From positions 1-37,691 of IMG/VR virus record IMGVR_UViG_3300027746_000048: a stretch of DNA of 37,691 nt; one strand, given 5' to 3'. The notes beneath the pieces were generated by a model, which had not been told where the DNA came from, did no database searches, and was given only the letters and a program-made list of their open reading frames with translations. The stretch is from a virus. Made by a program: the position numbers and the translations under genes. This document shows positions 1 to 36,828 of the stretch, in pieces (the first letter of the stretch is position 1; the number at the start of each line of letters is the position of its first letter).

Positions 1-41
1 AGGCAAGGGTGGGACGGACGGCAGTAGTGGAAATCCAGTAA
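1..41 (+). CDS. 3' fragment of the 3D-domain protein gene
   Basis: Reading from position 3, thirteen codons (ending in TAA at 39-41) encode the same last 12 residues as the complete gene at 36268-36828. The fragment is cut by the window edge. It matters because it shows that the left end of the window continues the gene order seen at the right end, which supports a closed map. Confidence 0.85.
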   Translation, partial: ARVGRTAVVEIQ

Positions 42-575
42 ATGAACCACCTCGGCCAAGACCCAGCGGATTCAATCTTGGCTAGTTATACGCCCGATAT
101 GGCAGAGCATATCGACACGCTCCAAGATCGGGTAAAGGAACGGCTCGCAAAAATGCAAGCGATGAACCCTAGCATCGACCTAGACCAGCTAGCCAAGCTC
201 ACGGCTGAGGTGGTGGAGCAGACCATAAAGCACGAGGGCGACAGCCAAATGTTGAGGCACCGGCGGGACGATACCTTGGACGAATCCTTGCTAGCCCTAG
301 CCACGAACCGAAGCCCCGACTCGCTGACCTCCATCGCAAAGCGTTACATCAACCCAAGCACCGGAAAGCCCTATACCAGAGCGGCCATCTCGGCACGCCT
401 TACGGAGCTATCACAACGGACTGGGCTGGTGCTACGCATCCAGAGGAGCGAAAGGGTGAGGCAGATTTACAAGGAGCGAGCCTTGAGGGTGCATAAAAAG
501 AGGCGGGAAGAATGCCCCAAATGGAACTCGGAAGCGTGGGCAAAAGGCATAAAACCACGAGGAAAAAAACGGTGA
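42..575 (+). CDS. Conserved phage protein with HTH-like segment
   Basis: 177 residues, basic C-terminus. Residues about 93-130 (TSIAKRYINP, then TRAAISARLTELS) read like a helix-turn-helix of the kind found in small phage DNA-binding proteins, and the last 40 residues are rich in Arg and Lys. The N-terminal 60 residues look helical, possibly coiled coil. An identical protein is encoded at 36829-37362 by a DNA copy with about 42 silent changes, so the protein is under strong purifying selection. It follows the 3D-domain gene directly. A regulatory or DNA-binding role near the small-terminase side of the map is inferred; no exact family is recognised. Confidence 0.75.
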   Translation: MNHLGQDPADSILASYTPDMAEHIDTLQDRVKERLAKMQAMNPSIDLDQLAKLTAEVVEQTIKHEGDSQMLRHRRDDTLDESLLALATNRSPDSLTSIAKRYINPSTGKPYTRAAISARLTELSQRTGLVLRIQRSERVRQIYKERALRVHKKRREECPKWNSEAWAKGIKPRGKKR

Positions 576-862
576 GGGCAGGCTCGAAAGTGATATGTGT
601 GGACGACCGATTCCCCACAGAGATCATCCTTTTCTACAACCACCTACCAATCAAAGACAAGGTCTATGTGGTAAGGGGGATGGGGGTAGGGGTAGGGCTG
701 AACGGCCAAGAGGGCGAGGTTGTGGTCTACCTTGAGGGGCTAAAGAACCCATGCTCGACCACGCCGCCCCACCCAGAGCGAGGCTTTCACGCCGACAGAT
801 TTCGAGAGATCGAACCACCCGCCGAAGTCGAAAATGAGGAACTCGTTGAGGCCACGGCATAA
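572..862 (+). CDS. Small conserved phage protein, GTG start
   Basis: The frame is open from an ATG at 512, but the GTG at 572 overlaps the upstream stop as GTGA and has a GAGG at 559-562, nine bases upstream. I therefore choose 572, giving 96 residues. The core VICVDDRFPTE, then LPIKDKVYVVRG, then RGFHADRFREIEP, resembles a widespread family of short phage proteins of unknown function that look like small beta-barrels. The copy at 37359-37649 differs only near the C-terminus (N to A, V to A, T to H), so the tail of the protein is less constrained than its core. Function unknown. Confidence 0.7.
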   Translation: MRAGSKVICVDDRFPTEIILFYNHLPIKDKVYVVRGMGVGVGLNGQEGEVVVYLEGLKNPCSTTPPHPERGFHADRFREIEPPAEVENEELVEATA

Positions 863-882
863 CCCAAAAAGGACATCCCAAA

Positions 883-1356
883 ATGAGCGAAAAGCAAATA
901 GGAATGGAGCTACAACGCACAGTCAAGGCACTAGAAAAGGCCAAGGAAACAGCCATTGAACAGATGGGGCAGGCCATCGGACTAGCCGCAGACGCAGGCG
1001 ACATCCTCCTGTCGGCACGGACAGAGGGGCTAGACCTCGAAGCCATCCAAGACATAGCCCAAATAAACGGTGAGCAGGCAAGGCGATATGAGCGTGTAGC
1101 CAAGGCAAGGCCATCCCTCCAAGCCCCCACACCCGGTGGCCTCAAGCAGTTAGCACTATGGACTGGGCTACTACCAGACCCTATCGAGACCTCCAACCCC
1201 AAGGCCGAGCAGGCTTGGCACTCCTACATAATCAAGGCTCGCCAATGGCTAGCACGCAAGAGCCCTACCCAATGGACACCCGCCCAGCGCACCCAATTCG
1301 TTGAGGAGGCAAGGCCGATAGTCGAGGCGTTCAAAGAGGCAGGGGGGGAGCTATGA
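883..1356 (+). CDS. DUF3102-like phage protein
   Basis: 157 residues. Residues about 28-75 (AADAGDILLSAR, then GEQARRYERVAKA) follow the pattern of DUF3102-type proteins: a helix with an alpha-helical HTH-like segment ending in an RYxRxA motif. The C-terminal half is Trp- and Ala-rich helix. A DNA-binding or replication-control role is only inferred. It begins 20 bases after the previous gene. Its first 22 bases recur exactly at 37670-37691, where the right-hand repeat ends. The repeat-bearing gap at 1357-1573 follows it. Confidence 0.6.
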   Translation: MSEKQIGMELQRTVKALEKAKETAIEQMGQAIGLAADAGDILLSARTEGLDLEAIQDIAQINGEQARRYERVAKARPSLQAPTPGGLKQLALWTGLLPDPIETSNPKAEQAWHSYIIKARQWLARKSPTQWTPAQRTQFVEEARPIVEAFKEAGGEL

Positions 1357-1573
1357 CAAAAGGGATATGCGACTTACGCAAGATTCTACACAAGGCACAA
1401 GTGCGACTTACGCAAGCAGGGTCGTTGAGTATAGGGTACTTACGCAAGATAGGGTCATTAGTGCGTGGTGTCAACAAGTTAACAGATTCCTATCTGCCCA
1501 ATCCCTCCAAAACAGGTTCCGACCGCAAACTTTTTGTACGAGTTTAGTCTAAAACCTTTATCTCAACACACTT
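1357..1573. promoter_or_regulatory. Intergenic regulatory gap
   Basis: This 217-base gap is the longest stretch without a convincing gene. It holds three spaced copies of a short repeat (1368-1448) and then an AT-rich section leading into the nuclease gene. I found no clear sigma-70 promoter and no terminator. Two short open frames across it (1353-1547 and 1367-1552) have no family-like sequence and read straight through the repeats. Confidence 0.5.
1368..1448. repeat. Three spaced repeats, operator or iteron-like
   Basis: TGCGACTTACGCAAG occurs exactly at 1368-1382 and 1402-1416; ACTTACGCAAG recurs at 1438-1448. Start-to-start spacings are 34 and 32 bp, about three helical turns, which puts the sites on one face of the DNA. 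Copies 1 and 2 contain the inverted repeat TGCG-N5-CGCA. Similarity continues after copies 2 and 3 (AGGGTC, then TTAG or TTGAG). A related GACTTACG stands at 30909-30916. A binding site for a phage regulator is inferred. Confidence 0.65.
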
Positions 1574-2629
1574 ATGCAAACAGAATCTCTAAAAATTAAT
1601 AAGAATAAATTTGGTCGCACAATTTATGATGAGGCCAAAGTTTTAGAGCTTCGGGCAACTGGGCTAGGTATGAGAAAAATTCACAATCAAACGCTTATTC
1701 CCAAAACGACACTTCATAGAATCTTTAAGCGCAACAACATTGAAACTTTTCCATATCAGACAAAAAGATGGGGCAACGCATTCCGGATTAAGGAAAGAAA
1801 AAGGATGGTTGGGCAAATATTCAAAAGGGGATCAGAGGCAAGAACTATAACGGCCAAAGTTATTAGGGCAATTAGGGTTGGTTCTTCTTTGTTTGAATCA
1901 ATAGAAAGATGCGGGGCTTGTCCAGAAATAGCCTTACGATGGCTCAAAAAAACAAAAAGCTATGATGCCCTTAAATGGAGAGAGCAAAAAAGAAAGATAT
2001 CACTTGGCCTATCGGCAGAACAGATGGAGCTACAAAAAGAACATCGCATTAAGAAAACGATGGAAATGCGAAAGGCAAAGTATATAGAAGCACGAAAAAA
2101 TACCGCCATTCTGATCAAATCATTAAGGGCTGGGATACCGATTGAGATCACGGCAAATCAACTCGGCCTAAACAAATCAACCGCATGGAATTGGGTATAT
2201 AAAACAAAAGCGTATAAAATTTTGCGGAATAAAATGAATTGCAATTTGAAATACCCCCGCAAAAAGAATATTGGGGTCTTGTCTAAAAAATACACATCGG
2301 AAAAGAAAATGATGCCCGATGCTCGCCAATATGTTGTTGCGGCAAACATCGGCAAGGGCGTTGTCGAGGAAAAGGAAACATGGAAAACAAACCAAATTGG
2401 GCAGGGGAGATCGGGACTAAGGGCGGATTTTTTTGTAAAAGAAGATAACCATATATACGAATGCAAGCAAAGGTGTGATCCCGGAACATCTCAAAGAATG
2501 ATAGGGCAAATTTTCATTTATATAATGGCGGGGTATAGGGTTTCGGCAATAATGCCAAACGACATTATTATCCCAAGCTACCTATCTGAAGCCCTTGAAA
2601 GAATGAAAGTCGAAATGATTCTTATATGA
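1574..2629 (+). CDS. HTH plus PD-(D/E)XK nuclease, AT-rich
   Basis: 351 residues, very basic. The first 220 residues hold repeated HTH-like segments (around KTTLHRIFKRNNI, EIALRWLKKTKSY and KSTAWNWVYKTKAY). The C-terminal domain has a PD-(D/E)XK core: RADFFV with D285, then HIYECKQ with E296 and K298, then GQIFIYIMAGY, a helix with the conserved Q of this superfamily. The gene is visibly richer in A and T than its neighbours and relies on AAA, ATT and TTT codons, so it is probably a recent import. A selfish or homing-type endonuclease, or a sequence-specific resolvase, is inferred. Its stop overlaps the next start (ATGA). Confidence 0.65.
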   Translation: MQTESLKINKNKFGRTIYDEAKVLELRATGLGMRKIHNQTLIPKTTLHRIFKRNNIETFPYQTKRWGNAFRIKERKRMVGQIFKRGSEARTITAKVIRAIRVGSSLFESIERCGACPEIALRWLKKTKSYDALKWREQKRKISLGLSAEQMELQKEHRIKKTMEMRKAKYIEARKNTAILIKSLRAGIPIEITANQLGLNKSTAWNWVYKTKAYKILRNKMNCNLKYPRKKNIGVLSKKYTSEKKMMPDARQYVVAANIGKGVVEEKETWKTNQIGQGRSGLRADFFVKEDNHIYECKQRCDPGTSQRMIGQIFIYIMAGYRVSAIMPNDIIIPSYLSEALERMKVEMILI

Positions 2630-3090
2630 AATACCCACAACTTCTAACAAAAAGAATCAGCGAACTTTCTCCCGCAAAATACAATCCCAGAAAAATTACT
2701 TCTGATGCTTTGGGTAGGCTCACAAAATCTTTGAGCGAACTTGGGAATCTTCAGCCGATAACTTGGAACGCCAAGACCGGGAACATAGTCGGAGGCCATC
2801 AGCGGCTGAAATGCTATCAAGCCCTCGGCAAAGATGAAATCGAGGTATGGGCGGTCTGGTTGGATGAGGCAAAAGAGAAGGCGGCGAACCTAGCTCTTAA
2901 TAAATTGAGTGGCGAATTTGATATGCCCCAACTCAAAGACATCCTAGAGGAACTGGACGCAGGGGAGATCGACATAGATATTACCGGGTTCAGCTTGGAT
3001 GAGATTGGAAAGATGATGGAGGCCACTAGCCCAGAAGATGAGAAGGGTGGAGAGGGCGAGAAATGCTTGGCGTGTGGGAAGCCCTTGTGA
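2626..3090 (+). CDS. ParB/Srx-type N-terminal domain protein
   Basis: 154 residues. The N-terminal 100 residues match the ParB-like fold: YNPRKI at about 19-24, then LSELGNLQPI, then GGHQRLKCY (residues 56-64), with the GxxR-like loop that binds nucleotide in ParB and sulfiredoxin relatives. The HTH domain of chromosomal ParB is absent. The tail is acidic and ends in CLACGKP, a lone CxxC. Such phage proteins often lie beside terminase or DNA methylase genes and may act as nucleases or CTP-dependent clamps. It overlaps the upstream nuclease gene by four bases and precedes the terminase genes, so a packaging or DNA-marking role is inferred. Confidence 0.8.
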   Translation: MKYPQLLTKRISELSPAKYNPRKITSDALGRLTKSLSELGNLQPITWNAKTGNIVGGHQRLKCYQALGKDEIEVWAVWLDEAKEKAANLALNKLSGEFDMPQLKDILEELDAGEIDIDITGFSLDEIGKMMEATSPEDEKGGEGEKCLACGKPL

Positions 3091-3093
3091 GAA

Positions 3094-3693
3094 ATGATAA
3101 GACAAAAAGAGCTATGCGAGAAGTGGGGGCTAACAAGGGGGGCAATCTCCCAGTTAGTAAAAGCGGGTATGCCCCTTACGAGCGTAGTCGATGCAGAGCG
3201 TTGGAAAATAGCCAATCAAAAGAAGCCAAGCAGGGCGAGGCCGATCTTGTCAGCATCAGCGAACTTATCAGAGACATCAGAGAACTCGGATGCCGAGTCG
3301 ATCAAATTGGGAAATCCGCTTGGACGATTACATCGGGCGAGGAGAGCCGAGTTAGTTGCCTACTCGTTAGTTCAGAGGGCGGCCAACGAAAAAAACCCAG
3401 TCGCTATGAGGGCGGCGGTGCAAGGATGGGGCGAAGCAAAAAAGCGAGTCGCAGAAGCCGAAATGGAACACGCTCGATGGGAAGAAGTGAGCCGAGTCAC
3501 AGTTCGGATGGGGGAAGTGCAGGAATGGATAACGAAGTGGCACGGAGCAATCAGATCGCTTCTGGATGCCCTTCCTTCGAGCCTAGCGGCCAGAGCAAAC
3601 CCATCAGACCCAGAGTGCGCCAAGCAAGCCATCCAAGACGGAATCAATCAAATCTTCGTTACCATCCAGAAAGCAGAGGGGGCGTTTAAATGA
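3094..3693 (+). CDS. Terminase small subunit, Nu1-like
   Basis: 199 residues. The N-terminus (QKELCEKWGLTRGAISQLVK, residues 4-23, then VVDAERW) is a winged-helix DNA-binding domain like that of lambda Nu1, which recognises cos. The middle is low complexity and the C-terminal half is amphipathic helix for oligomer or large-subunit contacts. Position just before the large terminase supports the call. An overlapping frame (3063-3689) is open but Arg/Ser/Gly-rich without pattern and is treated as a shadow. The start three bases after the previous stop has no strong Shine-Dalgarno and may be read by coupling. Confidence 0.75.
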   Translation: MIRQKELCEKWGLTRGAISQLVKAGMPLTSVVDAERWKIANQKKPSRARPILSASANLSETSENSDAESIKLGNPLGRLHRARRAELVAYSLVQRAANEKNPVAMRAAVQGWGEAKKRVAEAEMEHARWEEVSRVTVRMGEVQEWITKWHGAIRSLLDALPSSLAARANPSDPECAKQAIQDGINQIFVTIQKAEGAFK

Positions 3694-3827
3694 TACTAGG
3701 GCTAAAAATAGGTGTCGGAATAGTGCTTGGAATCGTGCTACTCAATGTGGCATTCTGGACTTGCATTATTCTGGCCTATCTACTCGCCACTTTATTTGAG
3801 TGCATCGGGAAGTGGATAAACAAGTGA
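3690..3827 (+). CDS. 45-residue membrane protein
   Basis: ATG at 3690 overlaps the small-terminase stop (ATGA). The 45-residue product is mostly hydrophobic: GVGIVLGIVLLNVAFW then IILAYLLATLF, giving one long or two short membrane segments, and it ends in KWINK. No family is recognised. The tight coupling to both neighbours and the clean hydrophobic profile argue that it is real. Possible roles include a holin or antiholin relative, or superinfection exclusion; none can be chosen from sequence. Confidence 0.6.
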   Translation: MILGLKIGVGIVLGIVLLNVAFWTCIILAYLLATLFECIGKWINK

Positions 3828-3898
3828 ATGAATGTTTCCTCGTCATCATCGCCACCCTCGGCTTGCTAGGATTGATTCTGCCGTTCTTTGACGAATGA
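3824..3898 (+). CDS. 24-residue membrane micro-protein
   Basis: GTG at 3824 overlaps the preceding stop (GTGA), and the TGA at 3896-3898 overlaps the next ATG (ATGA). The product has a single hydrophobic run (FLVIIATLGLLGLILPFF) and an acidic end. The double overlap is what coupled phage micro-genes look like. It may instead be only a spacer whose translation carries ribosomes to the HNH gene. Confidence 0.45.
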   Translation: MNECFLVIIATLGLLGLILPFFDE

Positions 3899-4200
3899 AA
3901 CGCTCGCCCCTCAAACGCAAAACCCCACTCAAGCGAGGGGGGAAACTACTCCGAGTGTCTGCCAAGAGACGAAAGCAAAACGAGGTCTATTCTGATGTGC
4001 GAGAGAAGTTTCTAGGCAACACACCAGTCTGCCAAGTTTGCCAAAACAAGATGGCGAGCCAAGTTCACCATAGGCGAGGGAGGTTCGGGGATAGGCTTAA
4101 TGAGGTTGAGTTTTTCTTGGCGGTTTGCTTTGAGTGCCATCACAAAATCCATATGAACCCAGCGTGGGCGTATGCAAAAGATTATCTGGTTAAGAGATGA
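3895..4200 (+). CDS. HNH endonuclease-like protein
   Basis: 101 residues with a Lys/Arg-rich N-terminus (RSPLKRKTPLKRGGK) and a zinc-supported HNH core: C46 and C49 (CQVC), VHHRRGR with H58-H59, then CFECHHKIH with C78, C81, H82, H83 and H86. Small HNH proteins next to the terminase are a recurrent feature of long-tailed phages and can be needed for DNA cleavage by the packaging machine. The stop overlaps the terminase start (ATGA), which agrees with such a role. Confidence 0.8.
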   Translation: MKRSPLKRKTPLKRGGKLLRVSAKRRKQNEVYSDVREKFLGNTPVCQVCQNKMASQVHHRRGRFGDRLNEVEFFLAVCFECHHKIHMNPAWAYAKDYLVKR

Positions 4201-5972
4201 ACATCGGGGCGTTCAGCCGTAGTTTCTTTGAGCCAAGAGAGCAACTATCAATTCCAGAATGGGCAGAGAAAAACCTTACGCTCTCGGCAAGGGTAACGAA
4301 CATACCCGGAGCATATTCGACAACACTCACGCCCTATGTTCGTGAACCCCTAGGGGCTTTTGGTGATGATTCAATTCGGAGGGTGGTGTTGGTATGGGGG
4401 GCGCAGACCTCAAAGACTACAACGATTCTCGCTGGCCTAGCCTACCGAGTAGCAGAGCGGCCTTGCCCGGTCTTGTGGGTGATGCCCTCGGAACATCTAG
4501 CCCGATCATTTACAGAAACCCGCTGGCTTCCGATGGTGGACGATTGCCCAGCCCTAGCCAAAGAACGGCCAGAAAATACAGACCGAATCAAAATCCTAGA
4601 GCAACATTTTAAGCGATGCTCAGTCTGGTGGGCGGGAACAAGTGCCTCGGCTCTTTCTAGTCGCTCGATTGCTTTGCTCTGTATGGATGAGGTGGACAAG
4701 TTTCCAGAGCAAGCAGGGTCGGGGAGGGAGGCCAATCCGGTGCAGTTAGCGGAAGCACGAGTCAGCACCTACCCCAATCATTTAATCATAGCAACTAGCA
4801 CCCCGACAACTGCCGACTCAATAATTTGGGCTGAATGGCAGAAGGGCGATATGCGTTTCTATTTTGTGCCTTGCCCCCATTGTGGATTAAAACAAAAACT
4901 AATCTGGGGACAAGTGAAGTGGGACGAGGCCGCCAAGATAGAAGATGGCGTTTATGATTATGCCCTAGTGAAATCCTCGACCTACTACGAATGCGAGGGA
5001 TGCAAGGGCAAGATTCAGGACGGCCAAAAAACCAAGATGCTCAGAGAAGGGGAGTGGAGGGCAACCAATCCCAAGGGCGAACCAGCCAGACGCTCGTATC
5101 ACCTCAACGGCCTATACGCTCCGTGGGTTAGCTTCGGGAGCTTGGCGGTCAAGTTCCTACAAGATAAGCACAGCGGGATTATCGGCCTGCAAGATTTCGT
5201 GAACCGAGTTCTTGCCGAGCCTTGGATGGAACACGAATCAGAAAAGATGCAGATCGTTCCCGGTGCTTACAAGATGGGCGAGGTTCGGATGGGCGATAAG
5301 CTGATTATGAGTTGCGACATTCAAGAGGCTGGGGGCTTCCACGCTTGGTGCGTTGTGAGGGCTTGGGATTTAGAGGGCAAACCAAGGCTTGTGTGGGCGG
5401 GTAGGCTAGAAACTTGGGGCGACATAAAGGCAAAACAAGACGAGTTTGGTGTTGAGGATAAATGTGTCTTAATTGATTCGGGCGATCAAACCAGAGATGT
5501 ATATTTGAATTGTTGCAAGAACGGCTGGGTGGCGTTGGTTGGCTCGGACAAGACCAGCTTCTCCGAGATCGTCAATGAGCAGAAGGTGCAAAGGCCATAC
5601 GCTCGAATCGCAAATGGCGACCCCTTCTCTGGTAAGGCAGTTCAATCAAGGGCGGGGTGGAAGTGGAAGCTCTGCCCGATTTGGAGATGGTCGAACCCAT
5701 CCATCAAAGACATACTCTCCCAGCTTCTCAAAGAGGAGGGATTCATCGCCCTAGATACGCCGGATGTTTGGAAGGTGCATATCGAAGCAGAGGTGAAGGT
5801 AAGAGTGAAAAATCCTATGACTGGCAGGGAAAGACTTGTATGGAAGCAAGTCGGGAAGCACAATCATTTAATGGATTGTGAGTGCATGAATATCGTGGGG
5901 GCGGCACTCCACGGAAGGCTCAAAGTTTCCCCCGCAAGTTTGACAGAGGAGGTTGAGAATGGCGAAGGGTGA
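4197..5972 (+). CDS. Terminase large subunit, lambda GpA-type
   Basis: 591 residues, close to the usual length of the GpA family. The N-terminus has SIPEWAEKNLTLS and PGAYSTTLTPYVREPLGAF, typical of the family. The ATPase Walker A-like loop is GAQTSKTT (68-75), Walker B is LLCMDEVDKFP with D164-E165, and IATSTPTT (198-205) is the coupling motif. A zinc ribbon follows (C226, C229, C266, C269). The nuclease domain has SCDIQ with D374, LIDSGDQT (426-432) and a late HNHLMDCEC. The enzyme translocates DNA into the procapsid and cuts concatemers. It overlaps the HNH gene before it and the head-joining gene after it. Confidence 0.95.
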   Translation: MNIGAFSRSFFEPREQLSIPEWAEKNLTLSARVTNIPGAYSTTLTPYVREPLGAFGDDSIRRVVLVWGAQTSKTTTILAGLAYRVAERPCPVLWVMPSEHLARSFTETRWLPMVDDCPALAKERPENTDRIKILEQHFKRCSVWWAGTSASALSSRSIALLCMDEVDKFPEQAGSGREANPVQLAEARVSTYPNHLIIATSTPTTADSIIWAEWQKGDMRFYFVPCPHCGLKQKLIWGQVKWDEAAKIEDGVYDYALVKSSTYYECEGCKGKIQDGQKTKMLREGEWRATNPKGEPARRSYHLNGLYAPWVSFGSLAVKFLQDKHSGIIGLQDFVNRVLAEPWMEHESEKMQIVPGAYKMGEVRMGDKLIMSCDIQEAGGFHAWCVVRAWDLEGKPRLVWAGRLETWGDIKAKQDEFGVEDKCVLIDSGDQTRDVYLNCCKNGWVALVGSDKTSFSEIVNEQKVQRPYARIANGDPFSGKAVQSRAGWKWKLCPIWRWSNPSIKDILSQLLKEEGFIALDTPDVWKVHIEAEVKVRVKNPMTGRERLVWKQVGKHNHLMDCECMNIVGAALHGRLKVSPASLTEEVENGEG

Positions 5973-6192
5973 TTTCATTGGGCTACCCCTTGCCACCCTA
6001 ACTTCTCTGCGTGATAAGTATGTGACTTGTCTTGAGGCGATTGCGGTGGCTGGGTCTAGCTATTCGATAGCGGGACGCTCTTTTTCTAGGGCGAATCTTG
6101 GGGAAGTTCGTGATACTATCGCAGAGCTAACCCTTGCCATCCAGTCTGCCAACGGCACTCGTATCCGCACGACCTACGCCAACTTCTCGTGA
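5959..6192 (+). CDS. gpW-like head-tail joining protein
   Basis: The frame is open from a TTG at 5953, but ATG 5959 has a strong GAGGAGG at 5946-5952, six bases upstream, so 77 residues are predicted. The pattern LATLTSLRDKYVTCLEAI, then SYSIAGRSFSRANLGEV, then ELTLAIQ resembles lambda gpW: a helix, a beta hairpin and a second helix. gpW proteins plug the portal after packaging and make the tail-joining surface. Position between terminase and portal fits. The beginning overlaps the terminase 3' end and the stop overlaps the portal start (GTGA). Confidence 0.7.
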   Translation: MAKGDFIGLPLATLTSLRDKYVTCLEAIAVAGSSYSIAGRSFSRANLGEVRDTIAELTLAIQSANGTRIRTTYANFS

Positions 6193-9100
6193 AAAAAGCC
6201 CAGCTAAACTTAATCGATAAAGCTGTTGCCTTTCTGAACCCGCAGGGGGCAGTTAATCGTATGATTGCACGGCAAAAGCTCGTCAACTTCTCTTACGATG
6301 CGGTCAAATATACAAGGGAACGCAAGGGGCCGAGTTCGCTTTCTGGTGCGGAAGATTATCGTTCTAACTATGACCGAGTGGAGCTGATGAAAAGGGCGAG
6401 GGACTTGGCAGAGAATGTCGGCCTTGTTCGCTCCATCCTTATGAAGTTCGCCAGCCACACCGCCGCAAACATTTCCTACCAAGCCCGAACAGAAAACCCC
6501 GAGGTCAATACAGAGGTTGAGGCATATTGGGCAGAGTGGTGGGACAAGTGCGACATCTCCACAAGGCACACCGGCTCAACCCTTATGCAGGTCGCAATGA
6601 TGAGTATGCTCCGGGATGGTGACTTCCTTTTCGTTTTGGTTCGCGATAAGGATGGCAACTTAAAGATTCAGGGCATCGAGGCAGATAGAGTAGGCGACCC
6701 ATTTAAGGTTTATACAAGCCTAGATTTGATCGGTGGAATCCATATTGATCGGGATACTGGTGCGCCGAGTGCCTACGATATTTACAACCGAAGCATCGGG
6801 GACTTCTACACCTACCAAGCAACAATCCCCGCAAGCCAAGCCTTTCACCTATTCGACCCGCTCCGCATCGACCAGTACCGAGGAATCTCCGCTTTCCATA
6901 CGGCCATAAATGATTGCACAGACATTTACGATATCGTGAACTTTGAGAAGATGGCGGCACGAGTTGCCTCTTCTCAATCCGCAGTTGTTCGCAGGAATAA
7001 CAACAATGCCTCTGATCTCTCCACGCTCACAAACGATGAGAATGTTAATGGTGATACTATCAAGCTAGAAGCGATTGAGTCTGGCAAAATCTCCTACCTA
7101 GAGCCGGGTGAGGACATCGTGTTTCCCGATGGGCCGAGCCGTCCCTCTGGTGCGTTCGCAGAGTTCCACAAGATTCTCCTCCGCAATATCTGCCTTGGCC
7201 TTGGCATCCCTTACAGCTTCGCCGTTGACCCTTCCGCTATGAGTGGCCCGACTGCTCGCCTTGAGATGCAACAAGCAGGGCGAACCTTCCGCAGATACCA
7301 GAAGCTCCTAGATGATAAAGTTCTTCGACCCATTAAGAACATCGTGATTGCCGATGGGGTGGCAAGGGGATTGATTGAGAACAATGTTGGAACAAGAACG
7401 ACGAAGGGCATCTTTAACTTTGGGGCGAATGTATCTATTGATTTAGGGAGAGAATCTGCCTCGGCCATCTCCGAGTTCAAGACCGGCCTCAGAACTGCCG
7501 CCGATATTTACGCAGAGAGAGGCCAAGATTTTGAGAGTGCTATGCGACAAAGGGCGATTGAGGCCAAGCTAGTGAAGGATTTGGCTGGAGAGTACGAAGT
7601 GTCGGCAGACACGATTTCCGACATTGCCGCAGAGGGATTGACCAGAGATTCACAAAAAGCACAAGCGACCCCAACAGAAGGCGAACAGACACCCGCTGGA
7701 CAACCTTCGGACGAGGATATGCTCGGTGGTGCTTCACTCAATGGAGCGCAAGTTGCCTCCCTTATCAATGTTATCAATGCCGTGGCGATGGGTGCAGTTT
7801 CCAAGGAGGGTGCAGTATCTATCATCACCGCCGCCTTCCCGACCATCAGCCCAGACCAAGCAAGGGCAATCGTGGCGGGAGTCAACATTGGGACAACTAT
7901 CCCCACGACCAAAGAAGAGAAACAGCAGATCGCAAAAGACCAAGAAGGGGATTCTTCGGGAGGCTCAACACCCCCAGCCCCAGAACCTACTATGCCCCCG
8001 ACCGCCCCCACGGCAACCTCACAAAAAAAAAGTAGTTTAGAGATTTTAGAAAGCCTCGACCCAGCTTCTATTAAGATGCTGATTGAGGGGATGATGGGCG
8101 GGATTGAGTTAGCAAAATACGATGGGATTGATTTTACACCCCCAGAAGGAGCTAGGGATGCCGCTAAAAGAGCCTTAGATGTGCGGGAGACAAAACCACC
8201 CAGCCAAAGGGGAATGACCCCTGTTGGCCTTGCTAGGGCGAGAGATTTAATCAATGGGGTTAAGATGTCTCCCGACACCATCAAAAGAATGAAAGCCTTT
8301 TTCGATAGGCACGAAGTGGACAAGAAAGGCTCGACCTTTGCGGAGCAAGGAAAGGGCTGGCAAGCGTGGAATGGATGGGGTGGGGATGCTGGATATTCTT
8401 GGGCTAGGAAAGTAGTTGGACAGATGGAATCTAGGGACAAGAAAGAACTAGCAGAACCAGAGACTTGCCCCCTGCCCACTCAAGACATCAAAACAAATCT
8501 AGCCAATAGGCAGACAGCCGTGGACGATGCAAACTACGGCCCAGCCAATCCTAACGAACCCAACGAGGACTACTGGAAAGCCAAGGCAGACGAGTTCCAA
8601 GGCGATGTATCCACGGCAAAGAAAATGCTTTGCGGAAATTGTGCGGCTTTCAACCAAACCAGCAAACTTCTAAATTGCATAAAAGGCGGGATAGGGATTG
8701 ATGCTGATGAGGTTGCGGTGGCTGGCGATCTAGGATATTGCGAGATTTTTGACTTTAAGTGTGCGGCCAAAAGGACTTGTGACGCTTGGATTGTTGGTGG
8801 GCCGATTACCGATAAGAAAGAAGAACTAGCCCGACCAGTCTCCCAAACCCCAGCCCCTCCTAAAGAAAGAATCAAAGGCTCGAAAGAAAACCCCGAAGGC
8901 ACGGCATCCACAAGAAGCAAAGCAGGGGACATTGAGATTTCAGAGCAGAACGAAGAAGCCCTCAAGAACAAGATCGCCGAGTTCAAGGACAAGCACCCCG
9001 CAAGAAAAGCCCCCACCATTGGGGCATTGAAGAAAGTTTTTCGCAGGGGGGCGGGTGCGTTCTCTACCAGCTTTAGGCCAACGATTACCGGTGGGAAACC

Positions 9101-10664
9101 CAACTCACGCAACGCTTGGGCGATGGCTAGGGTGAATAAGTTTCTCAAGATGGCTGGTGGCGGTGAAGTCAAAGACTCCTACCGCCAAGCAGACGGCGAT
9201 TTGTTAGAGGAAATATGTAGCGAGAAAACCGAGTTCGTTGCAGGCAGGGATTGTGGACAAGATGATGGCGGTACTTTCGGGCCAGATAATAAGTGTGCTG
9301 TTGGCTATGGGAGACCACCACTCAAGGGAGGCTATACTCCAACCAGACCCGGAGGGAAATTCCCCAAAGATTATAAAAGGCCAACCCAACAAGACGGCAA
9401 AGGCAAGAAACCACTTCCTCCAAAACCACCAGCACCAAAGCCACCCCTGCCACCACCGCCCCCGCCACTCCCTGCTGGAACAAAAAAGCCAACAGAAGAA
9501 AAGCCAACCATAAAATCTAAATTCCCAAATGCGACCAAGGCATATGACAGCAAAGAGAGAGCATCGCTAGACCCAGTTATTAAAGAAAATCAAAAAGAAT
9601 TTGATTCGATTAGAGAAAATATAATTAAAGAGACAGCAAATGCACAGAAAGAATTAGTATCCGCAGAAAGCAAATACCAAGAAATACAACAAAATCTAAA
9701 GGAAACTCAACTTAAAATTTCAAATCTAGTCGAAACACGAGACAAGCCCGGTGTAGATGCCAAAAGTTATGCCGAGGCCAAGTCACAGCTAGAGCAAGAG
9801 TTTAATAAAAGACAAGCCTTAAAAGAGGAATTGCAAAGGCCAGAAAAACTTATGCAAGAGGCAAGGCAAAAAGTTAGGGAAATTGGGCTTAATGCCATTC
9901 GCAAGGATATGCTAGATATAAACAAACAAGACGGATTTACCCCAGAACAATTAAGCAAGGCCACAGAAGAATTAAAACAAAAACAACAAGTGGCAATAGC
10001 AACAGACAAAAGATCAATAAGAGAAAGCAAGGGCGATCTTGCAACAAAAACAAGAGAAAAAGGACAAGATGTTTTAAGATCAATCTTCAATCCCAGCATA
10101 CACTCCGAATCGCTTTCAAAACCAATAAAATATTCAGGAACAAGCAGAGAATATTCAGATGGACAAACAATAGAATTTATTGATGGGACGAGAGCTGGGG
10201 CATTAAATGGAATAGTAATTAATAAAAATACAACCTTAAAGACAATACTTCACGAATACGGACATCAAGTTGAAAACGGAAGCCCAGAGGCACACGACTT
10301 GTGTTCTGACTTCCTTAAAAAAAGAACTAAAGGAGAAAAGATTGAAAGATTCCAAAGGGTTTTTAGGGGGTATGGGTTTGGAAAGAGTGAGCAAGGATCG
10401 CCAGACGATTTTGAAAAATCTTTTAAGGCTGTATTTCCAGAAAGAGAATCAAAAAAAGCCGCTTATTATGCCGGAAAGGTATATCGAGAGACAACTGTTG
10501 GGGCAAGCTCCAAGTCATTGGCAAGCACAGAGGTTTATTCTATGGGGCTAGAATTACTGCATCACAACCCAGTTAAGTTTGCTCAAGCCGACCCAGAGTG
10601 GTTTGATCTTGTGTCTGGGATTGCAACTGGTAGGCTACTCAAGAAGACAAGAGGACTTAAATAA
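6189..10664 (+). CDS. Portal protein fused to C-terminal HExxH metallopeptidase
   Basis: 1491 residues; normal lambda-type portals have about 500. Residues 1-450 are the portal (YRSNYDRVELMKRARDLAEN, LRDGDFLFVLV, FDPLRIDQYRGISAF, LGLGIPYSFAV). A Ser/Pro/Thr linker follows. Around 678-735 is a small phage domain (RARDLINGVKMSP, AFFDRHEVDKKG), then a Cys-rich segment from C815 (CGNCAAF to CAAKRTCDAW), then another small domain at about 933-990 (HPARKAPTIGALKKVFRRG). A proline-rich stretch (about 1064-1100) and a long coiled coil (about 1117-1290) lead to a zincin domain with HEYGH at 1355-1359 and a likely third ligand E1448. The last 1.1 kb is AT-richer, suggesting a grafted module. GTG start, coupled to gpW. 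Confidence 0.88.
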   Translation: MKKAQLNLIDKAVAFLNPQGAVNRMIARQKLVNFSYDAVKYTRERKGPSSLSGAEDYRSNYDRVELMKRARDLAENVGLVRSILMKFASHTAANISYQARTENPEVNTEVEAYWAEWWDKCDISTRHTGSTLMQVAMMSMLRDGDFLFVLVRDKDGNLKIQGIEADRVGDPFKVYTSLDLIGGIHIDRDTGAPSAYDIYNRSIGDFYTYQATIPASQAFHLFDPLRIDQYRGISAFHTAINDCTDIYDIVNFEKMAARVASSQSAVVRRNNNNASDLSTLTNDENVNGDTIKLEAIESGKISYLEPGEDIVFPDGPSRPSGAFAEFHKILLRNICLGLGIPYSFAVDPSAMSGPTARLEMQQAGRTFRRYQKLLDDKVLRPIKNIVIADGVARGLIENNVGTRTTKGIFNFGANVSIDLGRESASAISEFKTGLRTAADIYAERGQDFESAMRQRAIEAKLVKDLAGEYEVSADTISDIAAEGLTRDSQKAQATPTEGEQTPAGQPSDEDMLGGASLNGAQVASLINVINAVAMGAVSKEGAVSIITAAFPTISPDQARAIVAGVNIGTTIPTTKEEKQQIAKDQEGDSSGGSTPPAPEPTMPPTAPTATSQKKSSLEILESLDPASIKMLIEGMMGGIELAKYDGIDFTPPEGARDAAKRALDVRETKPPSQRGMTPVGLARARDLINGVKMSPDTIKRMKAFFDRHEVDKKGSTFAEQGKGWQAWNGWGGDAGYSWARKVVGQMESRDKKELAEPETCPLPTQDIKTNLANRQTAVDDANYGPANPNEPNEDYWKAKADEFQGDVSTAKKMLCGNCAAFNQTSKLLNCIKGGIGIDADEVAVAGDLGYCEIFDFKCAAKRTCDAWIVGGPITDKKEELARPVSQTPAPPKERIKGSKENPEGTASTRSKAGDIEISEQNEEALKNKIAEFKDKHPARKAPTIGALKKVFRRGAGAFSTSFRPTITGGKPNSRNAWAMARVNKFLKMAGGGEVKDSYRQADGDLLEEICSEKTEFVAGRDCGQDDGGTFGPDNKCAVGYGRPPLKGGYTPTRPGGKFPKDYKRPTQQDGKGKKPLPPKPPAPKPPLPPPPPPLPAGTKKPTEEKPTIKSKFPNATKAYDSKERASLDPVIKENQKEFDSIRENIIKETANAQKELVSAESKYQEIQQNLKETQLKISNLVETRDKPGVDAKSYAEAKSQLEQEFNKRQALKEELQRPEKLMQEARQKVREIGLNAIRKDMLDINKQDGFTPEQLSKATEELKQKQQVAIATDKRSIRESKGDLATKTREKGQDVLRSIFNPSIHSESLSKPIKYSGTSREYSDGQTIEFIDGTRAGALNGIVINKNTTLKTILHEYGHQVENGSPEAHDLCSDFLKKRTKGEKIERFQRVFRGYGFGKSEQGSPDDFEKSFKAVFPERESKKAAYYAGKVYRETTVGASSKSLASTEVYSMGLELLHHNPVKFAQADPEWFDLVSGIATGRLLKKTRGLK

Positions 10665-10672
10665 GGCATTCT

Positions 10673-10921
10673 ATGACTAAAATTACAATTTCTTTTTTAG
10701 GGGAAAACATCTCAATCATCATAGATGATGGAGAGATTTCAATAAACACGAAAAACAAGGCTGTTTTAGAGCTAATAGAATCCATATATTCTGACCTATT
10801 GGCATCATACAGCCCCGCAGACGGCTCTCTAGGCGGCAATCTAGCACAAGAACTGGTCAAAGTTGGGGCAAAAATTATAGAAGTCGCCGAGCCATCTATG
10901 GAAGAAGACCTAGTTTATTAG
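10673..10921 (+). CDS. Small acidic protein after the portal fusion
   Basis: 82 residues, acidic, without membrane segment or Cys. The N-terminus is beta-rich (KITISFLGENISIIIDDGEI) and the rest helical, with SPADGSLGGNLAQELVK and a C-terminal EEDLVY. It shares the AT-rich composition of the metallopeptidase end of the portal gene, nine bases upstream, so both may have arrived together. Two readings are possible: a conserved structural companion of portal fusions, or an immunity-type inhibitor that protects the host cell from the metallopeptidase before lysis. I cannot decide between them from sequence. Confidence 0.65.
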   Translation: MTKITISFLGENISIIIDDGEISINTKNKAVLELIESIYSDLLASYSPADGSLGGNLAQELVKVGAKIIEVAEPSMEEDLVY

Positions 10922-10927
10922 GTGCTT

Positions 10928-10933
10928 TTGACA
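10928..10933 (+). promoter_or_regulatory. TTGACA element 19 bp before a start
   Basis: TTGACA followed by TATA, 19 bp before the ATG of the prohead protease gene at 10947. It is one of eight similar elements at 19-21 bp before starts in the structural region. The spacing is too short for a sigma-70 -35 box. Confidence 0.4.
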
Positions 10934-10946
10934 TATAGAAAGCCTT

Positions 10947-12041
10947 ATGCCCCTGCCCCTACCTTCCGCAGACGAATCCGAACAAGACTTTGTATCCCGC
11001 TTTATGGGTGACGAAGAGGCAGTATCCAAGTTCCCAGATGAAACTCAGAGGGCGGCGGTTGCCTATTCTACTTACAGGGATGAGGAGATGGAGGAAATGG
11101 AGCTAGGCGGGGTGAGCATTTTGGAGGTGGGAGAGGCTAAAGGACACGACCTTTTTGTGGATAAAACAAGCCTAGAGACTGCCCTCAAACTTATGCAAGA
11201 GGCTAAAAATGGCACTAAGGCAAAGATGAATCATGGCTCTGGATTGGAGGCCGTCGTAGGTTTTTTAAGGAATCCCCGCATCGATGGAGACAAGCTGGTG
11301 GCCGACCTTCGCTTACTACGCAACTCCCCCCACTACGGCCTAATCAAAGAGATGGCATCCGAAGCCCCCGACCAGTTCGGCGTTTCCCTAGCCTTTGTGA
11401 ACGAATCCGAAACCATCGAAGGCAAGGATTACATTCGCCCCCAGAGCATCGCCTCTGCTGATTTAGTTTCCAGCCCAGCCGCCACAAACGGATTGTTTGA
11501 GGAGATGGTGAAGTTTATGGAAAAACTCGGTTATGTGCAGGGAGGCAAGACCATCCCAGCCGTAGCCAAAGAAGCCGTGGAGGAAGCTCCATTTGACAAA
11601 AAGGACAAAACAAATATGGAAAACAATTATATGAAAGATATCGAGGACATCAAGGTTCGCCTAGCGGCCATTGAAGATTCGATGAAACCCAAGAACGAAA
11701 AGATGGCCGAAGCCCCTGTAGACGAGCAAGCTGTTGCCAAAGAAGATAAGGCAGTTGCCGAGGGTGCAAAAGCCGAAGGCGAATCTGTTGATGAGGAAAA
11801 GCAAGAGGAGATGAGCGAAGTCGTGAAGAAAGTTCTGACCGAGTTCGGCATTAAGCCCATCCCCGCCTCTCCTTCAATCGAAGTTCCTTCCCAGAAAAAG
11901 GAAGAACCCAAAACTTTTGAAGCTCTCGTGGCCGCCCATAGCGACTACGGAACAAGCAAGCTCAAGGCAATGAAAGCCGTGATGCTCTCTAACCCAACCG
12001 AATACACCGAGGCTCTGTCTCGTGGTATTACCAAACTCTAA
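10947..12041 (+). CDS. Prohead protease fused to scaffold
   Basis: 364 residues. The N-terminus (LPSADESEQDFVSRFMGD, then FPDETQRAAVAY) is a short module common at the front of phage maturation proteins. Residues about 55-190 fit a prohead serine protease: MNHGSG with H96 and FGVSLAF with S147 as likely catalytic His and Ser, then ASADLVSSPAAT. The C-terminal 170 residues are Glu/Lys/Ala-rich helix and coiled coil, as expected for a scaffold cleaved out of the prohead. The long negative helical tail and the capsid genes directly after it support the fused protease-scaffold reading. Confidence 0.82.
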   Translation: MPLPLPSADESEQDFVSRFMGDEEAVSKFPDETQRAAVAYSTYRDEEMEEMELGGVSILEVGEAKGHDLFVDKTSLETALKLMQEAKNGTKAKMNHGSGLEAVVGFLRNPRIDGDKLVADLRLLRNSPHYGLIKEMASEAPDQFGVSLAFVNESETIEGKDYIRPQSIASADLVSSPAATNGLFEEMVKFMEKLGYVQGGKTIPAVAKEAVEEAPFDKKDKTNMENNYMKDIEDIKVRLAAIEDSMKPKNEKMAEAPVDEQAVAKEDKAVAEGAKAEGESVDEEKQEEMSEVVKKVLTEFGIKPIPASPSIEVPSQKKEEPKTFEALVAAHSDYGTSKLKAMKAVMLSNPTEYTEALSRGITKL

Positions 12042-12059
12042 AAAGAAAGATTAAATAAA

Positions 12060-12419
12060 ATGGCTACAAATATTGACGGTGGTGCAGTTCGCACCTTTAA
12101 CTTTGCTTCAGCGATCTCGGCTTACCGATTCGTTGAGGTTCATACGGATGGCACGGCTCGTGCGGCTGTTTCCGGTTCTGCTCGTTGCGTTGGCTCTACC
12201 ATCAGCGATGTGGCGGCTGGCGACAACGGTGCAGTTAAGCTGTTCTACCCAACCTTTTTCGCAACTTCCGAGTATGGAATCACCGCTGGTAACCTCGTTG
12301 CTACGACTGGTTCTGGCCTCGTAACCACGGCGGCGGCTAATCTCGGCGTTGTTGGCGTTGCTCTCGAAACTGCTCTTGCTGATGCAGTAATCGAAGTTGC
12401 AGTTCCCTTAACCCAGTAA
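12060..12419 (+). CDS. Capsid decoration protein, gpD/DUF2190-like
   Basis: 119 residues, Ala/Gly/Thr/Val-rich, no long helices. The pattern RFVEVHTDGTARAAVSG, then GVVGVALETALADAVIEV at the C-terminus, is that of small beta-rich capsid stabilising proteins placed between scaffold and capsid genes. It would bind at threefold sites on the expanded head. The gene sits 18 bases after the scaffold gene, with A-rich spacer and no strong Shine-Dalgarno. The codon use is smooth and GC-balanced, as expected for a highly expressed gene. Confidence 0.75.
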   Translation: MATNIDGGAVRTFNFASAISAYRFVEVHTDGTARAAVSGSARCVGSTISDVAAGDNGAVKLFYPTFFATSEYGITAGNLVATTGSGLVTTAAANLGVVGVALETALADAVIEVAVPLTQ

Positions 12420-12448
12420 TTTAACCAACCAAGAAAGAATATAAATAT

Positions 12449-13414
12449 ATGGCATATGTAAGCGGTGGAACGACTATTCGGGCAGATCTAAACCAAGCGT
12501 TGATCGAAGCCCCTCAAGCCGATGTCGGTTTGATTGGAGCGAATTTGCTCCCTTTGCAGAATGTTGATGCAAAGGCTGGAACATACCTCAAAGTTCAATT
12601 AGCTGGTGGAGAATTGCTCTCCAACAATGCACTCGCTCGTGAAAGTGGTTCTAGCTACAGCCGAGGGATTCGTTCCTTCGCCTCTGCAAACTACGCAACG
12701 AACGAGGTAGGACTTGAGGAACTCGTACCGGATGATAGTGCAAAAGATTTGAATAGGTTTTTTGCATATGAGGCCGAAACTGCGAAGTTCTTGCTTCGTC
12801 AGTTGAAGCTCTCCCACGAGAAGCGGGTGGCCGATCTTCTCTGGAACGCAACGACTCCCTTCACAATCGCTGACCAGACTCGTGCAGTTGCCTATACGCA
12901 AGCGTTAGTTGCAACAGTCGATGTGGCTCGTGATGTGGCGGCGGCCAAGTTGGCTCTTGCCCAATACGGCTATGAGTCCAACTGCGTTGCGATGTCTGCC
13001 AATGTGTTTGAGTTAATCAGACGCTCCACCCTTCTCCAAAATCAGTTCTTCGGAGTTGTCTCGAATACTGGTGCTCGTTTGCTCTCTGAACAAGAGATTG
13101 CGGCGGCTCTGGGAGTTCAGAATCTCCTTGTTGGTCGTGCGGCTTATAATACCGCTGGCAAGAACAAGACCTACTCTGGTTCGTTCATCGTTCCGGACAC
13201 CAAGATCATCGTTGGTCAAGTGTCTGGTGGTGAGTTCACCGCTGGTGGAATCGGACGCACCTTGGTCTGGTCGGGTGACTCGGCTGGTGGTTTCGTCTCT
13301 GAAAGCTATCGTGACGAATCTCGCCGTAGCCAAGTGTTGCGTGTGCGTATGAACACCGACGAGGTCGTGATTGACCCGAATGCGGCGGTTCGTATCACCA
13401 CAAACTTCGCCTAA
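12449..13414 (+). CDS. Major capsid protein
   Basis: 321 residues, within the range for E-type or HK97-fold capsid proteins. Position after protease-scaffold and decoration genes and before a strong terminator is diagnostic. Visible features include an N-terminal arm (SGGTTIRADLNQALIEAP), a helix with RQLKLSHEKRVADLLWN, a segment ALGVQNLLVGRAAYNTAGK often seen in phage capsid proteins, and a C-terminal RMNTDEVVIDPNAAVRI that closes the fold. Codon use is even and regular. I see no N-terminal scaffold domain, which agrees with a separate scaffold. Confidence 0.88.
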   Translation: MAYVSGGTTIRADLNQALIEAPQADVGLIGANLLPLQNVDAKAGTYLKVQLAGGELLSNNALARESGSSYSRGIRSFASANYATNEVGLEELVPDDSAKDLNRFFAYEAETAKFLLRQLKLSHEKRVADLLWNATTPFTIADQTRAVAYTQALVATVDVARDVAAAKLALAQYGYESNCVAMSANVFELIRRSTLLQNQFFGVVSNTGARLLSEQEIAAALGVQNLLVGRAAYNTAGKNKTYSGSFIVPDTKIIVGQVSGGEFTAGGIGRTLVWSGDSAGGFVSESYRDESRRSQVLRVRMNTDEVVIDPNAAVRITTNFA

Positions 13415-13440
13415 AGAATTGTTGGTTGTTTCATAGGAAT

Positions 13441-13477
13441 GGGGGGAGGGCGAAAGCTCTCCCCCCTTTTCTTTTTT
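13441..13477 (+). terminator. Rho-independent terminator after capsid gene
   Basis: An 11-bp GC-rich stem (13441-13451 with 13456-13466, one G-T wobble) closes a GAAA loop and is followed by TTTTCTTTTTT at 13467-13477. It lies 26 bases after the capsid stop. It would end or reduce head transcription before the glycosyltransferase cassette. Confidence 0.93.
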
Positions 13478-13481
13478 GACA
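13476..13481 (+). promoter_or_regulatory. TTGACA element at the terminator edge
   Basis: TTGACA begins inside the terminator T-tract. A TAAAAT lies 11 bp downstream (13493-13498), too close for a normal -10. A short ATG-AGC-TAA follows at 13488, and the modification cassette starts at 13518. It resembles the other TTGACA elements but does not have their 19-21 bp spacing. Confidence 0.3.
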
Positions 13482-13517
13482 TCCTTATGAGCTAAAATCC
13501 TCAACTCCGAAATCCCC

Positions 13518-15170
13518 TTGAAATATCCTATCTCCACCTATTTAATTGCTGGCAATGAAGAAGAATACATTGGCAGATGTTTGGAAAGTTTCAAACCCAT
13601 TTCAGCGGAGCTTGTTGTCTGCATCGCTAGGGGGAATCTTGTCCCAGACAAAACAGAAGAAATTGCCAAAGGTCTGGGTGCGAAAATCGTTCACTACCAG
13701 AATCAAAGAACTGATTGGCCTCACATAGACGATTTTGCAACCGCAAGGAACACGGCTCTTGGTGCGTGTTCAAATGAATGGTGTTTATGGGTCGATGCTG
13801 ACGATATAATGGCCGAGGATGGGGCGAAGGTTGTCGAAGAAGCTATTGACCTTGCCGTTGAGAAAGACGCTCACCTCGTAGCGTTAAAGTACAATGTGGA
13901 CAACGCCGGACTCATTCCCCTCCGAGAAGAAATCTCAAAGAGGGGAACTTGCCATTGGAAGAACCGAGTCCACGAAATGCTTGTTACTAAAGAGCCAAAC
14001 AAAACTATTGGGCTAGATAAGATTTTCAGAATCCACAAACCTAACGGCTATAAGGCCAAAAGTGCGGAAAGGAACTTCAACATCCTAGCCGACACGCTTT
14101 CCACCGCCCCAAACGCCCTTTACTACCAAGCTCAAGAATACTTCTTATCGAATCAGATGGACAAGTGTATTGAGTCCAGCTTGCGAGCCTTAACCTTTTC
14201 AGAGCTAGAAGATACGCTTCGCTATGATGTGCTTTGCAATCTTGGCCGATGCGTTCCAGACAATGAGAGGCTTTCTTATCTAGGGCAAGCAGTAGCCCTG
14301 CAACCAGACCGCCGAGAGGCTTATTTTTATATAGCGAATCATTGGGCGGGGAAGGGCAACTGGATAAAGACCTACGGCTCGGCAAGGGCTTGTATGACTT
14401 TGCATAGACCAAAAACCCACTACTGGAATCTTGTCGAGGCAATCTACAACTGGCAAGCGATGGACTTATATGAGACGGCCTCGGTGTGTGTGGGAGAGGC
14501 TAGCGAAGCTGAAAAGATTAAGAAGATGCGACCAGCCCCTAAGATCAGCATTATCCACGCCACCAAAGGAAGGCCACAAGTCGCTTGGCAAAGACGCTGG
14601 CAATGGCTTTCCCTAGCCCAAAAGCCCCTAGAGGTTGAATGGTTGTTTATGGTCGATCACGATGAGGCCGTCGACTACACCCCCCACCAAGCCATTAGGT
14701 GCAATCCCGGAGGCATCGTCAACGCTTGGAACGCAGGGGCAAAGTTAGCCAAGGGGGACATTATCATTCAAATGAGCGATGATTGGACACCACCCCGCCA
14801 TTGGGATGCCCTAATTTCGACCGCTATGGGGGATACAGCGGAGGAGAAAGTGTTGGCAGTATCAGATGGCCTCCGAACCGATAAACTGCTTTGTATGGCG
14901 ATTCTGACGCAATCTAGGCTCAAGAAACAGGGGGAGATGTTCTGCCCAGAATATCAAGAATCCGATGGCATATATTCCGACAACGAGGTGACCGACCGAG
15001 CTTATGAGGATAGGGTAATAGTTGAGGCTAGACATATCCAATTCAAACACGAGAATCCGATGTTCACCGGAGGCAACCCCGATGACCTACTTAAAAACCA
15101 CAATAAACCCGAACACTACCAAAGGGGGAAAGCAATCTATGAAAAACGCAAAGCAAATAATTGGATGTAG
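13518..15170 (+). CDS. Two-domain glycosyltransferase with TPR-like middle
   Basis: 550 residues. Residues 1-200 are a family 2 (GT-A) glycosyltransferase: ISTYLIAGNEEEYIGRCLES, then a DADD metal motif at 93-96, then a CHWKNRVHEM. Residues about 200-340 are helical repeats of TPR type (YYQAQEYFLSNQMDKCIESS). From about 341 a second GT-A domain begins (KISIIHATKGRP) with a DD pair at 421-422 and NPGGIVNAWNAGAKLA. The start is TTG at 13518, since no ATG or GTG lies upstream in frame and the fold begins at once. It opens a cassette of overlapping sugar and methyl transfer genes. Substrate unknown: virion protein or host glycan are both possible. Confidence 0.8.
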   Translation: MKYPISTYLIAGNEEEYIGRCLESFKPISAELVVCIARGNLVPDKTEEIAKGLGAKIVHYQNQRTDWPHIDDFATARNTALGACSNEWCLWVDADDIMAEDGAKVVEEAIDLAVEKDAHLVALKYNVDNAGLIPLREEISKRGTCHWKNRVHEMLVTKEPNKTIGLDKIFRIHKPNGYKAKSAERNFNILADTLSTAPNALYYQAQEYFLSNQMDKCIESSLRALTFSELEDTLRYDVLCNLGRCVPDNERLSYLGQAVALQPDRREAYFYIANHWAGKGNWIKTYGSARACMTLHRPKTHYWNLVEAIYNWQAMDLYETASVCVGEASEAEKIKKMRPAPKISIIHATKGRPQVAWQRRWQWLSLAQKPLEVEWLFMVDHDEAVDYTPHQAIRCNPGGIVNAWNAGAKLAKGDIIIQMSDDWTPPRHWDALISTAMGDTAEEKVLAVSDGLRTDKLLCMAILTQSRLKKQGEMFCPEYQESDGIYSDNEVTDRAYEDRVIVEARHIQFKHENPMFTGGNPDDLLKNHNKPEHYQRGKAIYEKRKANNWM

Positions 15171-15393
15171 GAAAGCAAAAAAGGGGGAAGATACCAAGGG
15201 GCTTGGTATGATTAAATTCGGGAAGTCTCGCCCCGACCCCACCAAGTATGTGAAGGTTGATATTACCTATGACGAAAAAGCAGAGAAAGATTTGTATGAG
15301 TGCGGGATGATTGCGTTAAAGCACGACAAGGAAGCAGTCATTCAATATGTGATCGTGAAGGCTCTTACTGGATACGCAAAGTGCAAGAAATAA
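15139..15393 (+). CDS. Small basic protein in the modification cassette
   Basis: 84 residues from ATG 15139, which has AAGGGGGAAAG just upstream and overlaps the preceding gene by 32 bases. The sequence (KAKKGEDTKGLGMIKFGK, then YVKVDITYDEKAEKDLYECG) is Lys-rich, with two strand-like segments and a helix. No family is recognised. Its place inside the overlapping cassette suggests an accessory role. Confidence 0.6.
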   Translation: MKNAKQIIGCRKAKKGEDTKGLGMIKFGKSRPDPTKYVKVDITYDEKAEKDLYECGMIALKHDKEAVIQYVIVKALTGYAKCKK

Positions 15394-17925: not shown

Positions 17926-17939
17926 TAGGAGGTGATTTT

Positions 17940-19163: not shown

Positions 19164-19177
19164 AGGAGCTTGAGAAT

Positions 19178-35977: not shown

Positions 35978-36271
35978 ATGAACGAACCCTTCACATCCTC
36001 AGAGGCAAAGGCCAAGGGCATTTTATCTGACCGCTACCCCGGCAAGGAGATGGCGAAACTCTACGCAGAGAACCGCAACCAAGCGACCATCGATATGCTC
36101 CGAGATGCCGTGTTCACTTTGATTACTAACGAGATTCCAACTTGTACCATCGCCCAAGTTTTACGCAAAACCCACGGGGCGATTCAGTACCACCTACGAT
36201 GTCTTGAGGGTGACGGCAAACTAAAGAGACGGAACAAGCGATGTCATTGGCGGGAGGCAGTTGAAGCGTGA
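35978..36271 (+). CDS. HTH protein
   Basis: 97 residues. PGKEMAKLYAENRNQATIDM then NEIPTCTIAQVLRKTHGAIQ, YHLRCLEGDGKLKRRNKR reads as a winged helix with a basic wing. A transcriptional regulator is inferred. The stop overlaps the next GTG. Confidence 0.6.
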   Translation: MNEPFTSSEAKAKGILSDRYPGKEMAKLYAENRNQATIDMLRDAVFTLITNEIPTCTIAQVLRKTHGAIQYHLRCLEGDGKLKRRNKRCHWREAVEA

Positions 36272-36828
36272 ACAAGAAAATCAATAAGATGGAAGCCAAG
36301 GCAATCGAGGCACAGATCGAAAAGCTCAAGGCCACGATTGACAACGCAGAAGGCAAAAGAACCAAGGGAGACGAGTCCCCATCGAGACGCTACCGCCACT
36401 TATGCGAGCAACTCCACTTTCTAACGATGAAAAAAGCCATCCTCATCCTAGCCATCGCCCTTCTCGGCTCGGTGCAGGGGGCAAACATAATGATCGAAAC
36501 CCCAAGGCCACCACCCAAGAAAACAATCAAGGCTCGTATCACGGCCTATTGGTTGGGAGAGGATGAGTTTGGGTGGAAAAGCTCTACTGGAAAACGGTTG
36601 GTCTCTGGCAAATCTTGTGCAGTAGACCCTAAAATCATCCCCTATGGAACGACCTTATTAGTTGAGGGCAAAGCATATCACGCTCACGATACTGGCACGG
36701 CAGTAATTTCTAGGAAGGCATCGGGCAAGACCAAGCTCCCAGTTGTAGACCTATTTTACGCAACGGAACGGCAAGCAAGGCGGGAGTTGGCAAGGGTGGG
36801 ACGGACGGCAGTAGTGGAAATCCAGTAA
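36268..36828 (+). CDS. 3D-domain (RlpA/MltA-like) cell-wall protein
   Basis: GTG 36268 overlaps the previous stop and has GGGAGG about 10 bases upstream; 186 residues. The first 53 residues are a charged helix; then MKKAILILAIALLGSVQG (54-71) is a membrane or signal segment, and residues 85-186 are a 3D domain with D120 (AVDPKIIPYG), D141 (HAHDTG) and D161 (VVDLFY). An internal ATG at 36427 would make a 133-residue secreted form. 3D domains occur in murein lytic enzymes. Either start may be used. Confidence 0.75.
   Translation: MNKKINKMEAKAIEAQIEKLKATIDNAEGKRTKGDESPSRRYRHLCEQLHFLTMKKAILILAIALLGSVQGANIMIETPRPPPKKTIKARITAYWLGEDEFGWKSSTGKRLVSGKSCAVDPKIIPYGTTLLVEGKAYHAHDTGTAVISRKASGKTKLPVVDLFYATERQARRELARVGRTAVVEIQ

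Follow-up and report, generated by a model that had tools for sequence, protein, structure and literature searches.

The viral contig analysed here carries at its two ends two diverged copies of a 904-base segment, which can be regarded with high confidence as two alleles of one single-copy locus originating from co-existing strains, the contig having wrapped past one lap of the phage map. As such, the 904-base pair in the window, i.e., the whole stretch of 37,691 nucleotides analysed (IMG/VR virus record IMGVR_UViG_3300027746_000048), most likely corresponds to an assembly artefact and to no biological terminal repeat. The left copy (haplotype A) and the right copy (haplotype B) align without any gap (Table 1), 832 of the 904 bases being the same and 72 sites differing, which bears out the indel-free alignment with some 70 differing sites described in a previous reading of this DNA made without database searches (the sequence-only reading). 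This pair is the sole repeat of at least 40 bases given by the repeat finder for the window. The A/B differences are strongly clustered, with up to 21 of them per 60 bases, a density reached in none of 2000 uniform shuffles, and the segment is bordered by two blocks exhibiting no A/B difference. At base 1 of the contig, the left copy has an A, and this base is probably an assembly tip error since the right copy and every relative aligned there have a T. The densest cluster of differences (window 408-467) includes a serine codon switch (TCA/AGC); its A and B versions are each common to different relatives, a pattern suggestive of segment exchange.

Table 1. Features of the window relevant to the duplicated ends and to the physical termini of the phage (positions in the window).
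Feature	Position	Strand	Basis or remark
Haplotype A of the single-copy locus, left contig end	1..904	+	Alignment, relatives' flanks, signature 42-mer
Haplotype B of the same locus, right contig end	36788..37691	+	Alignment, relatives' flanks, signature 42-mer
87-base block without A/B difference, putative strain-bubble entry	2..88	+	Copy alignment
48-base block without A/B difference, putative strain-bubble exit	857..904	+	Copy alignment
Gene of the 177-aa conserved protein, function unassigned	copy A 42..575, copy B 36829-37362	+	
Gene of the 116-aa protein, overlapping the 177-aa gene	copy A 512..862, copy B 37299-37649	+	
Gene of the 3D-domain protein, natural upstream neighbour	36268..36828	+	Only its last 41 bases inside the overlap
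157-aa ORF, natural downstream neighbour	883..1356	+	First 22 bases inside the overlap
GGTTCCGAC, cos (cohesive-end) site, physical terminus of the virion genome	1515..1523	+	Relatives' contig ends
Large terminase, gpA family (PF05876 + PF20454)	4197..5972	+	Domain matches; fits cos packaging

Between A and B, the gene of the 177-aa protein differs at 42 nucleotides, distributed over the third (35), the first (6) and the second (1) codon positions, and the encoded protein exhibits no aa difference, just as the sequence-only reading had it in reporting an identical protein despite about 42 silent changes. Since 42 random substitutions in this gene changed about 30 residues, with a minimum of 20 over 2000 simulations, a set of differences without any aa change lies well outside chance expectation. 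The 116-aa ORF, for its part, exhibits 30 nucleotide differences and four aa changes (S8G, N108A, V112A, and T115H). The conclusion of the sequence-only reading that the two small genes are genuine and subject to purifying selection is supported. The pattern is not special to the A/B pair, though: among pairs of the 177-aa gene with 40-49 nucleotide differences, 19 out of 130 likewise lack any aa difference. The A/B pair is thus typical of the group, and A and B would differ almost only at silent sites because they are natural alleles that diverged for long under purifying selection, with no need to call upon any special process. Regarding the nature of the encoded proteins, PHROGs returned no family for either of them, the match of the 177-aa protein to SBDS domain II (Pfam) fell below the curated cut-off and was not taken as a finding, and the AlphaFold2 model of this protein (mean pLDDT 66) gave no significant match with Foldseek. 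No relative turned up in cellular genomes scanned with the profile of the 177-aa protein, and hence neither a host nor a prophage is put forward. Named phages gave no match to window 1-20000 by megablast.

If the contig wrapped around, relatives would be expected to carry a single copy of the locus with both flanks adjacent to it, and both versions would be expected to occur as independent natural alleles. The set of relatives comprised 80 IMG/VR records, found by search with the 177-aa protein, and whole-record searches gave exactly one copy of the locus in each of them (80/80), a comparison of other genomes of the group for a single copy having been proposed in the sequence-only reading. In nearly all of these relatives, the single copy sits after the window's right flank and before the window's left flank. 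Because relatives carry one copy between these two flanks, the window can be read as a permuted map of a single-copy locus, comprising a 36,787-base unit and a second pass over this one locus, where each copy has its natural flank on one side and an artefactual edge on the other. As for the alleles, the signature 42-mer of B is present as a single exact match in each of four other contigs, and that of A likewise in each of four different ones; as such, A and B are ordinary natural alleles of one locus. Single metagenomes also contain several relatives that are about as diverged, e.g., L007 and L017 of 3300023174 with 93.7% identity over the locus region. Neither a contig linking allele A to the upstream flank of the window nor one linking allele B to the window's downstream flank was found, near-identical records possibly being missing from those searched; exact searches with that upstream flank retrieved a single, more distant relative and otherwise nothing.

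Alternatively, the locus could have undergone a true tandem duplication with the order upstream-B-A-downstream, the contig being cut between the two copies. Such an arrangement would agree with the intact genes encoded by each copy, but it is very unlikely considering that (i) none of the 80 relatives has two copies, (ii) the A and B alleles are found separately in other phages, (iii) diverged end overlaps are seen at other loci too, and (iv) joining B directly to A would disrupt the end of the 3D-domain gene and the start of the 157-aa gene at the junction, even though intact versions of both would remain at the outer edges. There is little chance that two diverged copies of the locus really reside near the cos end of this phage, with selection retaining one of them as an acquired allele; if true, it would be a rare instance of a duplicated gene pair retained by a phage and recoded almost only silently. 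Of the two possibilities put forward in the sequence-only reading, the one where the phage really has two diverged copies thus finds no support, all 80 relatives having one, and the one where the assembler joined two co-existing haplotypes is well supported by the copy number in relatives, the occurrence of both versions as natural alleles, the overlaps in other contigs and the location of the termini elsewhere.

With the contig having wrapped past one lap through two strains, we infer that the path taken in the window's own assembly graph was the following. Circularised or concatemeric intracellular DNA would have provided reads letting the assembler cross the cos site, and the assembly graph of this phage of ~36.8 kb would have been circular, with a bubble where two strains differ (window 89-856). 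The contig would have started in the shared block ahead of the bubble and taken branch A; after one lap of the map, it would have reached the shared block again, taken branch B and stopped where B rejoins the common path. Elements of such a path have been described separately, namely end repeats of k-mer length left behind when circular templates are assembled (CheckV, PMC8116208), strain bubbles that cause assemblers to retain a single path or to terminate contigs early (Phables, PMC10563150), and contig breaks occurring at positions with multiple paths (COBRA, PMC10914622). Like contigs bearing the k-mer-length end repeats considered in CheckV (PMC8116208), the window spans slightly more than one lap and presents one region at both ends; unlike such overlaps, which are usually exact and of k-mer length, the present one extends over 904 bases and escapes exact-repeat detection because the lap closes through the allele of a different strain. 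Like the strain bubbles of Phables and COBRA (PMC10563150, PMC10914622), it involves diverged tracts of co-existing variants leading to branching and early contig ends, the difference being that both branches are kept here in one contig, one per end.

End overlaps are not restricted to the window. Some near-complete permuted contigs of the group exhibit exact end overlaps of 52, 93, 123 or 127 bases, and three contigs exhibit non-identical ones, namely G037 (222 bases with 7 mismatches, the first at 124, corresponding on the map to ~35.2 kb of the window), G013 (178 bases with one mismatch at 128, ~12.3 kb of the window) and G038 (246 bases with 8 mismatches, the first at 128, ~27.8 kb of the window), i.e., at map positions quite different from one another and from that of the window's overlap. 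In these three contigs, the overlap starts with 123 or 127 bases free of mismatches, lengths that recur as exact overlaps elsewhere in the group and that fit with k-mer-sized entry blocks. In the window, the entry block follows a mismatched first base, and its 87 bases correspond to no obvious standard k-mer. The matter is of practical relevance since a contig of this kind is classed as linear, often as a fragment, and yet is probably a whole genome overlapping itself, and its end repeat could be misread as a duplication of genes or as a signal of DNA packaging; an end-overlap test tolerant to mismatches would raise the number of complete genomes recovered where strains are mixed in a sample.

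The co-existence of the group's strains within samples might also raise the concern that the assembler mixed strains differing genome-wide, the window being chimeric at many places besides the end locus. This is most improbable in view of two contigs aligned to the window. The first one (L086), which bears the A signature, is identical to window 27-13442 over all of its 13,416 bases; it begins inside the shared block and leaves the sequence preceding allele A uncovered. The second one (G051), from another metagenome and belonging to the window's population, is 99.9% identical to the window and differs from it at only 2 bases over its first 20.8 kb (window 1515 to ~22371). Because both contigs match there, at least that half of the window represents one real backbone. 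At window 22372-22663, ~100 bases before its own end, the second contig exhibits 16 clustered differences with one aa change; this tract lies inside a 126-aa ORF (22364-22744), and the contig is otherwise 99.99% identical to the window. Judging from the manner in which this contig differs from the window, variants of the population can differ by local diverged tracts on a near-identical backbone, such tracts probably arising via recombination with relatives.

The same data yield the true cohesive ends of a widespread group of uncultivated phages. In 21 of the 80 relatives, contigs end right after AACA-GGTTCCGAC, AACA-GGTTCCGAGG or close variants, one of them after three further bases resembling sequencing adapter, and in a second set of relatives, found with the terminase, 20 contigs start exactly at GGTTCC. 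One contig (G022) presents the same 10 bases at both ends, and the near-identical contig G051 begins exactly at window 1515. With this conserved end site, a short sequence common to left and right ends, and a terminase of the lambda gpA family, the phage is best read as cos-type, with cohesive ends of 9-10 bases and a genome of ~36,796 bases end to end. Since both contig ends keep the sequence, a 5' overhang would be expected at the cos site. The similarity with lambda lies in the gpA-family terminase and in the short cohesive sequence on both contig ends; the cohesive ends of lambda are of 12 bases, unlike the 9 or 10 bases (GGTTCCGAC, GGTTCCGAGG and variants) of this uncultivated group. Just upstream of the cos site, CTTACGCAAG is repeated three times (window 1373, 1407, and 1439), and similar motifs are present upstream of cos in many, though not all, relatives, with one or more at 35 of 51 sites; it is possible that these repeats are terminase-binding sites. 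Bases resembling Illumina adapter sequence are found on L092 and L093 (contig IMGVR_UViG_3300032314_000157), namely the first 8 (TCCGATCT) and the last 3 (AGA) after cos, as could be seen if reads began at a physical end of the DNA.

With the physical termini mapping to window 1515-1523, the window ends are not virion ends, the 904-base locus lying instead ~610 bases inside the right end of the virion genome, and the designation of the two copies as terminal repeats in the sequence-only reading is a misnomer. A genuine direct terminal repeat of the T7 type, or a headful terminal redundancy, with diverged copies would be in line with the presence of copies at both ends of a contig of roughly unit length. 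In such repeats, a single template regenerates the copies, which are hence identical (Phables, PMC10563150), whereas 72 differences separate the present copies over 904 bases. In addition, contig ends of relatives pile up at the cos site, the gpA-type terminase suits cos packaging, and many relatives read uninterrupted through the 904-base locus, which altogether leaves this explanation with a practically negligible probability. As candidate classes, the T7-type repeat failed both on the identity of the copies and on their position relative to the virion ends, and headful redundancy was rejected considering that the copies are diverged and that the termini map to cos. Elsewhere in the window, a 1491-aa ORF (6189-10664) matches portal proteins over its N-terminal third and exhibits, in a C-terminal stretch, a weak match to a minor head protein family; this ORF would encode an unusually long, possibly fused portal.
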